Translations under genes and position numbers: made by a program
From: Halorussus salilacus
GTDB taxonomy: Archaea > Halobacteriota > Halobacteria > Halobacteriales > Haladaptataceae
DNA length: 64,000 nt
Direction: 5' to 3'
NCBI RefSeq assembly: GCF_024138125.1
Contig: NZ_CP099993.1
Location: forward strand, 2,170,001-2,234,000
Notes under the pieces: model-generated
What the model was told of the DNA's origin: nothing
The model's database searches: none
The model's input: the letters and a program-made list of their open reading frames with translations, nothing else
Shown here: piece by piece, positions 7,502 to 14,239 of the stretch
How the letters are laid out: each line of letters starts with the position of its first letter
Numbering within the stretch: position 1 is the stretch's first letter

Positions 7502-8422
7502 TCACTCCTCGGCGTTGCCGACCAGTCGCTCTATCTCCTCGTCGTCTTTCCACTCGCCGAGTTCCTTCGGGTCGACGTGGACGAACACGTCGTCGACCTG
7601 GTCGAGCGCCCGGATGGACTCCATCACCTCGGTCTCGATGTCGTGGGCCTCCATCAGGGTGCGGTCGCCCTCGACCTCGATGTGGAGGCTCACGTCGATC
7701 TCCGGGCCGACGTAGTGAGCGATCACGTCGTGTGCGCCCTCGACGTCCGGGTGGACGAGCGCGCGCCGGACGATTTCGACCCGGAGGTCCTCGGGCGGCG
7801 CGCTGCCGACGAGGTAATCGACGTTGTCCTCGACGATCTCGTAGCCGGTGTAGAGGATGCCGAGCGCGACCACGCCCGCCGCGGCGGGGTCGAGCGCGGG
7901 CACGCCGAGGTTTGCGCCGACCACGCCGACCAGCGCCGCGCTCGCGGTCAGGATGTCGATGCGGTTGTCGAGCGCGGTCGCGCGGAGCGCGGGCGAGTGG
8001 GTCTCGTCGGCGACCCGCAGGCAGTACCGATAGAGGCCGTACTTGACCGCGGCGGTGCCAGCGAGCACCGCGACCGCGGTCGGCGCGGTCGTGACCGCGA
8101 TGTCCCCGGACAGCACCGCGGTGGTCGCCTGCCACAGCACCGCGCCGCCCGCCGCGAACACCCCGAGCGCGACGAACAGCGAGACGAACGGCTCGATGCG
8201 CTCGTGGCCGTGGGGATGGCTGAAGTCGGGCGGTCGGGTCGTGAGGTACAGCCCCGCGACCACGACCGCGCTGTAGGCCACGTCGGCGAGGCTGTTGACC
8301 GCCTCTGACCCGACCGCGAGGCTCCCGGTCGTCGCCCACACCGCGGCCTTGGCGACGACCAGTCCGGCGTTGACCGCGAGCACGAGCGCGCCGACACGCC
8401 GGACGGCGTCCTTCCGGCTCAT
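7502..8422 (-). CDS. Cation diffusion facilitator family metal transporter
   Basis: 306 residues: six membrane helices (residues about 10-200), then a cytoplasmic beta-alpha-beta domain (200-295). The helix-5 site reads ALDNRID (D-x3-D). The helix-2 site reads GSEAVNSLAD, with Asn where zinc-type CDF proteins usually have His, which hints at a metal other than zinc. The sequence HPHGHERIEP is the usual His-rich loop. It ends with a HVDPKELGEWK motif shared with the paralogue at 31876-32790. The Cys-rich microprotein gene lies 77 bp upstream on the same strand, so the two may be cotranscribed. The start at 8422 was chosen by family length. Confidence 0.85.
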   Translation of the reverse strand: MSRKDAVRRVGALVLAVNAGLVVAKAAVWATTGSLAVGSEAVNSLADVAYSAVVVAGLYLTTRPPDFSHPHGHERIEPFVSLFVALGVFAAGGAVLWQATTAVLSGDIAVTTAPTAVAVLAGTAAVKYGLYRYCLRVADETHSPALRATALDNRIDILTASAALVGVVGANLGVPALDPAAAGVVALGILYTGYEIVEDNVDYLVGSAPPEDLRVEIVRRALVHPDVEGAHDVIAHYVGPEIDVSLHIEVEGDRTLMEAHDIETEVMESIRALDQVDDVFVHVDPKELGEWKDDEEIERLVGNAEE

Positions 8423-8499
8423 CGGGCGTTCGTTGCGCCCGCGGAAAGAAGGGTGTATCGCTCTCGGCCCCGATTCTTCGGGTGCGACCCGAGCGTCGG

Positions 8500-8592
8500 T
8501 CAGCAACAGCCCGTTCCGCAACAGCCACAGCAGACGACGAGCGTGCAGTCGGAGTCGGTGCGACGGTCGGTGGGACAGCGGTCGTCAGACAT
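8500..8592 (-). CDS. Cys-rich 30-residue microprotein
   Basis: A 30-residue protein too short for ordinary gene finding. It starts MSDDRCPTDRRTDSDC and ends in the cluster CCGCCGTGCC: eight Cys in all, six of them in the last ten residues. A TATA-like AGTTTATCC on the minus strand (8620-8629) sits at leaderless distance from the ATG, and the codons show high GC at third positions. The Cys cluster should bind metal (metallothionein-like) or be redox active. It lies between a CDF metal transporter and a divergent HxlR regulator that itself has a Cys-rich tail. Function is inferred only from this context. Confidence 0.6.
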   Translation of the reverse strand: MSDDRCPTDRRTDSDCTLVVCCGCCGTGCC

Positions 8593-8709
8593 CGCAGTTC
8601 TCCCTACGGCCCGAACGCGGATAAACTGGTCAGTGGGCCGCCAGAAACGGGGTTTCCCGGGAGAAACCGCTCGGGGGCGTTTATGTCCGTTCGGGTCCAA
8701 GCCCCGGCC
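8593..8709. promoter_or_regulatory. Divergent promoter region of the microprotein and HxlR genes
   Basis: The minus-strand TATA (AGTTTATCC, 8620-8629) faces the microprotein. The plus-strand TATA (GTTTATG, 8679-8685) is about 28 nt before the HxlR ATG at 8710. Between them is the dyad GGTTTC-CCGGGA-GAAACC (8651-8668), which is the best candidate operator for the winged-helix regulator. Confidence 0.5.
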
Positions 8710-9141
8710 ATGAACGGTCGCTCCGGCGGCGTCGACGCCGACGCCCCCCGAGACGACGACTGGCGGCGTACGTGGCACGCGATTCGAGACGTTCTGGGTT
8801 CGAAGTGGGCGTTCCACGTCGTCCGGGCGCTCGCGCGCGAGGAGCGGGGGTTCAACGACCTCAAGCGCGAACTCGACGGCGTCACCGCCAAGACGCTCTC
8901 CGGGCGGCTTCGGGAACTCCGGTGTCTGGGGTTCGTCGAGAAGGAGGTCCACGCGACCTCGCCCCCGACCACGACGTATCGACTGACCGACCACGGCGAG
9001 GACCTCGCCGCGATTCTGGCCGACGTGGAGTCGCTGGTCGAGGTGGTCGAGTGCGGAGACGGCGACTGTCCGGTTCCGGCCTCGGTCGGGGCGGCGTGCG
9101 AGACCGAGACGCCCCGCGATTCGTCGACCTGCGACTGTTAG
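8710..9141 (+). CDS. HxlR family regulator with Cys-rich tail
   Basis: 143 residues. Residues about 18-105 form a MarR/HxlR winged helix (WHAIRDVLGSKWAFHVVRAL, then FNDLKREL and TAKTLSGRLRELRCLGFVEKEV). The tail after residue 112 carries Cys at 115, 120, 130, 141 and 143 (CGDGDC ... CDC at the end), unusual for the family and suggesting sensing of metal or thiol stress. A frame opens further upstream, but the TATA box 25-31 nt before 8710 supports a leaderless start there. It overlaps the convergent HIT gene by 4 bp at its stop. Confidence 0.85.
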   Translation: MNGRSGGVDADAPRDDDWRRTWHAIRDVLGSKWAFHVVRALAREERGFNDLKRELDGVTAKTLSGRLRELRCLGFVEKEVHATSPPTTTYRLTDHGEDLAAILADVESLVEVVECGDGDCPVPASVGAACETETPRDSSTCDC

Positions 9142-10117: not shown

Positions 10118-10383
10118 CGGTCGCGAACTCGACCCTCCGGTTTCGTCGACGCGGTGGCGTAGACCCCTCGCTTCGCGCTCGACGCACCGAGAACCGGCCG
10201 GACCGTCCCGCTCGGACGTGTTATCGAACCGAGCGATGGGCCTCAGGCGGCCCGTCGGCCCGTTTCGGCCGGGTTCCCTCTCGAAACCCCCTGAGAACGT
10301 ATCATTGAAAATATAATTTATTACTATATAAAATCTTCGGCCGTTGTACGCCGTTTTTGTTTCATTACTTTCTCTAACGACTC

Positions 10384-10460: not shown

Positions 10461-10483
10461 CCCCCAACGGAAGGGGGTTTTTA
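10461..10483 (+). promoter_or_regulatory. C5/G5 stem followed by TTTTTA
   Basis: CCCCC-AACGGAA-GGGGG-TTTTTA has the form of an intrinsic terminator, but TTTTTAT can also serve as the TATA box for the gene starting at 10525. The two readings cannot be separated by eye. If it ends transcription, it would act as an attenuator of a transcript begun at the ATAAACG boxes. Confidence 0.35.
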
Positions 10484-10524
10484 TGCTCATATCAGCACAA
10501 GAAGAGACCGAGAGGAAAGTCATC

Positions 10525-10725
10525 ATGGCAACACAAAACCAGGGCTTCCAGGCAATCACGGAATCGTGCGACGAGTGCGAGCGCGAGACGCCACACGAGG
10601 TCTCCGTTCAGATCCGGACCGAGAGCCAGAAGCGCGAGAACGCGGAGTTCTCGCGCGAACCCTACCGGGTCACCGAATGCACGGTCTGCGGTGAGACGTC
10701 CAGCCAGCGGATGAACAACGCGTAA
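10525..10725 (+). CDS. Small zinc beta-ribbon protein
   Basis: 66 residues with two CxxC pairs, SCDECERE at 15-18 and TVCGE near 56-59 (preceded by Cys at 53). These are expected to hold one zinc ion in a small beta-ribbon; the rest is polar and acidic. Such proteins are widespread in haloarchaea and probably touch nucleic acid or a protein partner. An ATG 42 nt upstream is in frame, but I prefer 10525 because it lies shortly after a GAGAGGA ribosome-binding-like sequence and gives a compact domain. It is preceded by the AT-rich control region. Confidence 0.75.
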   Translation: MATQNQGFQAITESCDECERETPHEVSVQIRTESQKRENAEFSREPYRVTECTVCGETSSQRMNNA

Positions 10726-12103: not shown

Positions 12104-14239
12104 ATGCAACGAGAGACTGGCGCAGTGTTGATGGCCGCACTCCTGATGCTCGCTGGCGTTCCACTGGCGGCGATGGGTGGGTCGTCGACGAGCGAGACGA
12201 CAGCGGAGAACGGCGTAACACTTCAAGACACGACCGTCGAGCGGCTCGAACTGGCGAACGCCACGGTCGAGAACGCGACCATCGAGGAGATGCAGGTCGA
12301 CACCGTGGAGCTCGAGAGCCGAAACGAGACGCTGGAGAACGGGACGCTCCAGAACGCCACGCTCGGGGGGATGTCCTTCGAGAACGTGACGATGGAGAGC
12401 CTCGACACCGACGACGAGACGCTCTCGGGGCAACTGAGCGGCAACGCCTCCGTCGAAGAGGCCACCGTTCAGGACCTGACCATCGAGCAGATGAACGTCT
12501 CCCAGCTCACCGTCGAGTCGCTCGAAGTCGCGGGTGAGGAGGGCGAACAGACGACGACCGCCGAGGAGGACGAAGAGACCACGACCGAGGAAGACGCTGA
12601 GGAAGAAGACGAGGAGACCACGACCGAGGAAGACGCTGAGGAAGAAGACGAGGAGACCACGACCGAGGAAGAGGACGACGGCCTCGGTGAGGACGAAGAG
12701 GAAGAGACCACGACCGAGGAGGAGAACGGCGACGAGCTCGGTGACGAAGAGGACGAGGAGACCACGACCGAAGAAGACGAGGCCGCGCTTCAGGACGAGG
12801 ACGAAGAGACGACCACCGAAGAAGAGGACGCTGAGGAAGACGAGGAGACCACTACGGAGGAAGAGGACGCTGAAGAGGACGAGGAGACGACCACCGAAGA
12901 AGAGGACGCTGAAGAGGACGAGACCACGACCGAGGAAGAAGACGAAGAGACGACCACCGAAGCGGACGCCGAGGCCGACCAGCAGATGGACTCGGTCGAG
13001 GTCGGTAGCGCGACCATCCAGAGCGTCGACGTTCAGGAGATGACCATCTCGAACCTGACGGTCGAGAACCTCGACACCGGTATCGAGGTCGAAGAGATGA
13101 CGCCCGAAGAGACGACGACCGCCGAAGACGAGGAGACCACGACCGAGGAAGAGGACGCTGAAGAGGACGAAGAGACCACGACTGAGGAAGAGGACGCTGA
13201 GGAAGACGAGGAGACGACCACCGAGGAAGAGGACGCTGAGGAGGACGAAGAGACGACGACCACAGAAGAGGACGCTGAGGAAGAAGACGAAGAGACCACG
13301 ACGACCGAAGAAGAAGCCGCGCTCCAGGACGAGGACGAAGAGACGACCACCGAAGAAGAGGACGCTGAGGAAGACGAAGAGACCACGACTGAGGAAGAGG
13401 ACGCTGAAGAAGACGAAGAGACCACGACTGAGGAAGAGGACGCTGAAGAAGACGAAGAGACGACCACCGAAGAAGAAGACGCTGAAGAAGACGAGCAGGA
13501 CGGCACGGTCGTCGAGAGCGTCTCCGTCGAGAACGTGACCATCGACGACGCGACGGTCGGCTCGGCGTCGGCCGAGGAGTCGAGCGTCGACGAGGGCGAG
13601 GTCGCGCTCGTCACGATACAGGACCTCTCCGCGCCGTCGGAGGTCCAGCAGGGCGAGAACTACACCGTCGAAGCCACCGTCGCCAATCAGGGCCCCGACC
13701 AGTCGGTCCAGCAGGTGTCCTACCGCATCGAGGGCAACGTGATCGACTCCGATCTGGTTCAGGTCCCCGGCGGTAGCTCGACCACGGTGTCGTTCAACAT
13801 CACCGAGGCCGACATCGGCTCGTTCCCCGACGGCACGTACGAGCACGGCGTGTACACCGTCGGAGCCAACCAGTCGGGCAATCTGACCATCGCGTCGGCC
13901 GAGGAGACGACCGAGGAAACCGAGACGACCGCGGAGGAGACCACCGAAGAGGAGACCACCGAAGAGGAGACCACCGAAGAGGAAACCCCTGAGGAAGAGA
14001 CCACGACCGAGGAAGACGAGGAGGGCGACGAAGCGGGTGAAGACGAGGAAGAGACCACGACCGAAGAGGACGACGAAGCGGGTGAAGACGAGGAAGAGAC
14101 CACGACCGAAGAGGACGACGAAGCGGGTGAAGACGAGGAAGAGACCACGACCGAAGAGGACGACGAAGCGGGTGAAGACGAGGAAGAGACCACGACCGAA
14201 GAGGACGAGGAATCCGCTTCGCTGGCCATCGAGGCCTGA
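12104..14239 (+). CDS. Secreted Glu/Asp/Thr-repeat protein with CARDB-like domain
   Basis: 711 residues. Residues 1-25 are a Sec-type signal (MQRETGAVLMAALLMLAGVPLAAMG). Residues about 40-143, 294-332 and 466-500 are short beta-strand repeats of the form VENxTIxxMxVxxLxVE. They are separated by three very acidic low-complexity blocks (144-290, 334-465, 601-705) built from EEDEETTTEE-like units. Residues about 500-597 look like a CARDB or bacterial-Ig adhesion domain (ENYTVEATVANQGPDQSVQQVSYRI). There is no visible membrane anchor or PGF-type sorting signal. It probably lies in or outside the cell envelope. The repeats come from tandem 24-36-bp DNA units, so length should vary between strains. 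Confidence 0.8.
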   Translation: MQRETGAVLMAALLMLAGVPLAAMGGSSTSETTAENGVTLQDTTVERLELANATVENATIEEMQVDTVELESRNETLENGTLQNATLGGMSFENVTMESLDTDDETLSGQLSGNASVEEATVQDLTIEQMNVSQLTVESLEVAGEEGEQTTTAEEDEETTTEEDAEEEDEETTTEEDAEEEDEETTTEEEDDGLGEDEEEETTTEEENGDELGDEEDEETTTEEDEAALQDEDEETTTEEEDAEEDEETTTEEEDAEEDEETTTEEEDAEEDETTTEEEDEETTTEADAEADQQMDSVEVGSATIQSVDVQEMTISNLTVENLDTGIEVEEMTPEETTTAEDEETTTEEEDAEEDEETTTEEEDAEEDEETTTEEEDAEEDEETTTTEEDAEEEDEETTTTEEEAALQDEDEETTTEEEDAEEDEETTTEEEDAEEDEETTTEEEDAEEDEETTTEEEDAEEDEQDGTVVESVSVENVTIDDATVGSASAEESSVDEGEVALVTIQDLSAPSEVQQGENYTVEATVANQGPDQSVQQVSYRIEGNVIDSDLVQVPGGSSTTVSFNITEADIGSFPDGTYEHGVYTVGANQSGNLTIASAEETTEETETTAEETTEEETTEEETTEEETPEEETTTEEDEEGDEAGEDEEETTTEEDDEAGEDEEETTTEEDDEAGEDEEETTTEEDDEAGEDEEETTTEEDEESASLAIEA
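12535..14220 (+). repeat. Tandem acidic-repeat DNA inside the secreted protein gene
   Basis: Three clusters (about 12535-12975, 13105-13500, 13905-14220) of degenerate GAGGAAGACGCTGAGGAAGA and GAGACCACGACCGAAGAG units. The last cluster contains four near-identical 42-bp copies of GACGACGAAGCGGGTGAAGA-type sequence. They encode the E/D/T blocks. Confidence 0.85.

Follow-up and report, generated by a model that had tools for sequence, protein, structure and literature searches.

Background

The smt locus of Synechococcus is divergent, and its product SmtA is a peptide of 56 aa. The SmtB/SmtA system brings together a small winged-helix regulator, an operator dyad at the metallothionein promoter and a short Cys-rich peptide as output (PMC8790569). 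A second group of winged-helix regulators, the HxlR (DUF24) family, includes YodB, QsrR and HypR, which have palindromic operators, that of YodB being TACT-N7-AGTA (PMC8063818). Haloarchaeal ars operons encode the halo-CC-star proteins HcsL (NF041416) and HcsS (NF041415), a name used in no paper found by our literature search, and a DUF2703 gene of Rhodococcus lies within an ars cluster and is induced by arsenate (PMC6514093). Finally, leaderless polycysteine small ORFs are found upstream of genes in mycobacteria (PMC4633059).

Here, we analyze a locus in a 64-kb stretch of DNA from Halorussus salilacus, called the window below, to which all coordinates refer. A sequence-only reading had proposed a metal- or thiol-responsive module made of a CDF transporter, a Cys-rich microprotein and a Cys-tailed HxlR regulator. 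Our main finding is that the regulator and the microprotein almost certainly form a two-gene unit, divergently arranged, conserved and equipped with a candidate operator, to which the CDF transporter does not belong. The pair resembles SmtB/SmtA in combining a winged-helix regulator, a dyad and a Cys-rich peptide, and it would work like the cyanobacterial system without being a member of that family: it is built on an HxlR and not on an ArsR/SmtB protein, and its peptides are unrelated to SmtA in sequence, CC-rich and mostly shorter.

Results and discussion

The regulator and its polycysteine partner

The features of the locus are collected in Table 1. Two descriptions made earlier from the letters alone hold: the microprotein has eight Cys in 30 residues, six of them among the final ten, and the regulator ends in a tail of five Cys (115, 120, 130, 141 and 143), its only other Cys, C72, being at the end of the recognition helix. 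The leaderless spacing of the TATA boxes was equally well read, with TTTAT 27-30 nt before both ATGs, and the TTTATC of the microprotein promoter is kept in relatives. At its other end, the HxlR gene overlaps by 4 bp (9138-9141) the stop end of a HIT-family gene on the minus strand, so the cassette is packed tightly against HIT.

Table 1. Coordinates of the pair, its candidate control elements and the neighboring transporter gene
Feature	Position	Strand	Basis and remarks
Polycysteine microprotein gene MSDDRCPTDRRTDSDCTLVVCCGCCGTGCC	8500..8592	-	30 aa, 8 Cys, CC-stop end; 19 genomes have a counterpart that is divergent to HxlR
HxlR-family regulator with Cys tail	8710..9141	+	143 aa; PF01638, alignment, structure model
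Candidate HxlR operator, dyad CGGGGTTTC-CCGGGA-GAAACCGCT	8648..8671 (core 8652-8667)	none	sequence pattern
TATA-like box (TTTAT) of HxlR	8680..8685	+	center about 27 nt 5' of ATG, leaderless; from sequence
TATA-like box (TTTAT) of microprotein	8620..8625	-	about 30 nt 5' of ATG, leaderless or nearly so; from sequence
CDF-family transporter, N-D/D-D metal site	7502..8422	-	PF01545; neighbor, judged not to be a module member
CDF promoter-like element GATACACCCTTCTTT	8445..8459	-	conserved; retained at sites without the cassette

The regulator belongs to a known family (PF01638, E 2.6e-18, 66.1 bits against a gathering score of 20.8), and its predicted structure is a winged helix, with the tail modeled at a confidence too low for a metal site to be read. 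It scores below the ArsR/SmtB cut-offs (13.7 bits against 22 for PF01022, 14.9 against 55 for NF033788), and its best NCBIfam matches, also below cut-off, are the redox factors RrpB/RrpA. Profile alignment to 5hs7 places its tail Cys opposite the C101...C108 tail of Bacillus subtilis YodB; C-terminal Cys, described earlier as unusual for the family, are not without precedent in it. The likeness to YodB, QsrR and HypR extends to fold, family and palindromic operator. Unlike them, however, the window HxlR has no Cys6, as the alignment shows no conserved Cys before C72, and its partner is a polycysteine peptide instead of an azoreductase or quinone enzyme.

A search with the microprotein alone missed most of its relatives (length change, low complexity), which were found by synteny and an HxlR profile. 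Conservation of the frame, on which the earlier proposal depended, was borne out by counterparts in 19 genomes. The peptides of these 19 module loci are 27-67 aa long with 16-34% Cys and runs up to CCCCC, and 16 of them end in CC-stop; length and middle part differ widely between loci. Pooled, they contain 24% Cys, approximately 1% F/Y and 0.6% His, Lys, His and aromatics being nearly absent, and thus have the composition of metallothioneins (small, Cys-rich, almost without aromatics or His). Their constant presence opposite the regulator is far above chance, as 300 kb of background contained three comparable polycysteine ORFs, including two genuine Rdx tails. No Pfam or NCBIfam family includes the peptides tested: the window peptide had no Pfam match, five peptides had no NCBIfam match, the HcsL and HcsS models matched none of those tested, and we found no family model or paper that describes them. 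Their TGC/TGT codon use does not differ from that of other genes. A peptide profile search, whose sensitivity was low enough to miss the window peptide itself, returned no orphan peptides without HxlR.

The pair is inherited as a unit

Among 27 loci of the Haladaptataceae, seven carry HxlR and microprotein, divergently oriented, between CDF and HIT and the other 20 carry neither, so that the two genes always behave as a unit. On a tree derived from CDF and HIT, supported branches force at least four gains or losses, each involving both genes together, and sister genomes differ in this respect (G002 with the pair, G004 without). Searching 392 Halobacteriales genomes with a profile of the Cys-tailed HxlRs returned 18 top matches (E <= 1.6e-55) and one lower match (G281); all 19 of these best-scoring regulators, from five families, have a divergent polycysteine ORF near their start. 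Outside the Haladaptataceae, the pair thus resides in four more haloarchaeal families, beside unrelated genes. No case outside the order was present in a phylum sample of 345 genomes.

A dyad between the divergent promoters

The intergenic dyad, GTTTC-N6-GAAAC, has no other exact copy in the window, where 0.03 would be expected. With at most one mismatch it is found in 16 of the 19 module loci (0.18 expected), mostly 57-59 nt 5' of the HxlR start, and practically no spacing other than 6 is seen in module upstream regions; half-sites are 11 bp apart both here and in the YodB operator. It abuts the HxlR promoter and sits further upstream of the peptide promoter, near which some module loci have a second, weaker dyad. 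HxlR very probably binds the dyad; its absence from three module loci (G358, G281 and G357) speaks against the switch proposed below. A search for the operator in seven genomes yielded only scattered further sites and no conserved second target, the two next-best sites of genome G000 being located where an ABC transporter and a phytoene-desaturase-like protein are encoded. In the window, a weak operator-like site with two mismatches (10268-10291), probably due to chance, precedes by about 200 bp a small Cys-containing ORF (10483-10725, plus strand). The start of tail-less HxlR relatives is preceded by a different dyad with this geometry (about GGTACC-N6-GGTACC), which provides a natural control for operator specificity.

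Sister regulators in arsenic and DUF2703 loci

All 37 Cys-tailed HxlRs are accompanied by one of three Cys-tailed partners, namely polycysteine peptides (19), ars/Rdx (7) or DUF2703 (11), while none of six tail-less HxlRs has any of the three. Partner classes are strongly clustered on the HxlR tree (6 changes versus 21 in shuffles), the polycysteine class not being a single clade.

The seven regulators of the ars class close an arsenic operon, ArsD-ArsA-HcsL-HcsS-Rdx-(90 aa)-HxlR, of which the short loci of G169 and G333 show the Rdx and 90-aa genes only. Annotated examples are on Halorubrum lacusprofundi pHLAC01 and on a Halorussus limi plasmid, with acr3 and arsR upstream; in the latter, arsM adjoins the operon. 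The same dyad, here in the invariant form GGTGGTTTC-AGCGCT-GAAAG, lies 82 nt 5' of Rdx in 9/9 ars loci examined. These operons share with our locus a sister HxlR at their end, the dyad before Rdx-HxlR and CC-stop proteins; they differ in that HcsL and HcsS contain few Cys, and no ars genes were seen beside the polycysteine modules. The link proposed here between the polycysteine pair and arsenic would run only through kinship and the common operator. The SelW-like Rdx ending in PGCC and the Cys-tailed HxlR are outside the classical ars set, and a 90-aa protein is also encoded beside them in several ars operons.

In eleven genomes, HxlR is divergent to a gene for a DUF2703 thioredoxin-like protein. 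Four of these loci have the dyad with at most one mismatch, and in two an adjacent gene is of the low-molecular-weight phosphatase/ArsC type. Those DUF2703 proteins that were read out terminate in Cys motifs (DCGCGC, CGCGC, CGCDC, GCDC, DCGC).

A candidate thiol-ligand switch

The best reading of the pair, to which we give about an even chance, is a self-contained two-gene stress switch responding to a thiol ligand (arsenite or a soft metal). An HxlR dimer on GTTTC-N6-GAAAC, between the divergent leaderless promoters, would control its own gene and that of the microprotein. A ligand with affinity for thiols, for which arsenite, antimonite or some other soft metal ion is the most likely candidate, would be bound by the tail Cys, perhaps together with C72, and the altered DNA binding would allow the microprotein to be made; with up to one third Cys, arranged in clusters, the latter would sequester this ligand and thus be a small buffer akin to metallothionein. 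The pair would probably both sense and mop up arsenic-like or other thiol-binding poisons. The conserved pair, the gain and loss of its genes together, the shared dyad and the ars kinship of the regulators are seen in the sequences themselves; DNA binding, ligand and the binding role of the peptide are all parts that we infer, and they differ in strength. A thiol-reactive ligand is likely. Both the kinship of the regulator and its surroundings indicate a metal(loid) or oxidant that reacts with thiols, and to this extent the earlier reading was right. Arsenite in particular is a tentative choice; the ars operons, where sister regulators follow the same dyad, support a ligand of the arsenic type, but those operons also have ordinary ArsR regulators, and HxlR may respond to another signal in them. 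The chances that the peptide is a metal(loid) buffer seem evenly balanced; against this role, its clusters are mostly CC where classical metallothioneins have CxC, and no metallothionein family matches it.

The nearest characterized relative, YodB, senses quinones and diamide and not metals, which argues against a metal ligand and leads to the foremost alternative, a YodB-like switch for thiol oxidation or electrophiles. Disulfides or adducts would form on the tail of HxlR, with the peptide acting as a disulfide buffer or sacrificial thiol and not as a binder of metal. YodB is also the closest solved relative, with its C101/C108 tail aligned to C115 and beyond, and the RrpB/RrpA matches as well as the thioredoxin-like nature of the DUF2703 and Rdx partners are in keeping with such a switch. 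We nevertheless consider it unlikely, as the N-terminal Cys6, essential in YodB, is missing and sister regulators reside in ArsA/ArsD arsenic operons. It is improbable that the microprotein serves as a co-regulator, carrying a metal or disulfide to the Cys tail instead of acting as a bulk buffer: strict gene pairing and the Cys-richness of both tail and peptide would fit, but the sequence gives no sign of contact, and the peptides are highly variable in length and middle part.

Were the thiol-ligand switch to be correct, haloarchaea would possess a buffer akin to metallothionein together with a metalloregulator of the HxlR type, and a single sensor family with one DNA site would connect the halo-CC-star, Rdx and DUF2703 proteins that arsenic loci encode and that have so far lacked an explanation. 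We raise, with some reserve, the possibility that the peptides are the first archaeal family of genetically encoded metallothionein-like peptides, that these HxlRs are a lineage of arsenite or soft-metal sensors independent of ArsR/SmtB, and that a single operator serves three Cys-tailed output modules (polycysteine, Rdx/ars and DUF2703). The pair offers a clear candidate operator, a peptide of 30 residues, and sister strains that naturally possess or lack it.

Downstream genes and the CDF transporter

Leaderless polycysteine frames have been proposed in mycobacteria to act in cis as Cys-responsive attenuators of the downstream gene, and the ORFs described there are, like ours, leaderless and short with a C-terminal Cys cluster (PMC4633059). 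The CDF gene of the window follows 77 nt 3' of the microprotein ORF, which would fit such a role. An attenuator is nevertheless very improbable here: the ORF has its own divergent regulator and no constant co-directional downstream gene lacking a promoter, the downstream gene varying by group and facing the peptide gene in at least 8 of 12 loci outside the family. Moreover, most Halorussus sites empty of the cassette retain GATACRCCCTT, exact or almost so, 37-39 nt 5' of the CDF ATG, which suggests that CDF is transcribed from a promoter of its own.

That the pair controls or serves the CDF metal exporter is suggested by same-strand adjacency of CDF and microprotein in all seven family genomes with the pair, and has an equally slight chance of being correct. 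CDF is found in 28/28 Haladaptataceae genomes, and elsewhere the pair occurs without it; we therefore rejected it as a part of the module. The three-gene order expected to be conserved across haloarchaea is not, only the HxlR-microprotein pair being constant. The standing order in the family is MtaB-CDF-HIT, in which CDF and HIT (usually also MtaB) adjoin with or without the pair, and the CDF-HIT gap is approximately 50-130 bp in the 20 loci devoid of it. As for the transporter itself (PF01545, E 4.4e-43), the Asn read in helix 2 is present, but the residue that it replaces, the first helix-2 ligand, is Asp in FieF and not His; compared with FieF/YiiP, the helix-5 His is also changed, to Asp, giving an N-D/D-D site. 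Such a site may mark Mn transporters; the protein scores 101.9 bits, below the cut-off of 500 for the MntE manganese-efflux equivalog (NF052621).

Lastly, a RiPP precursor with HxlR as its regulator, which a short peptide rich in Cys and variable in its middle might bring to mind, is scarcely credible, as neighbors vary by family and no modifying enzyme is retained with the pair. Further along the window, positions 12104-14239 (plus strand) encode a large, secreted-looking protein built of acidic EEDEETTTEE repeats.
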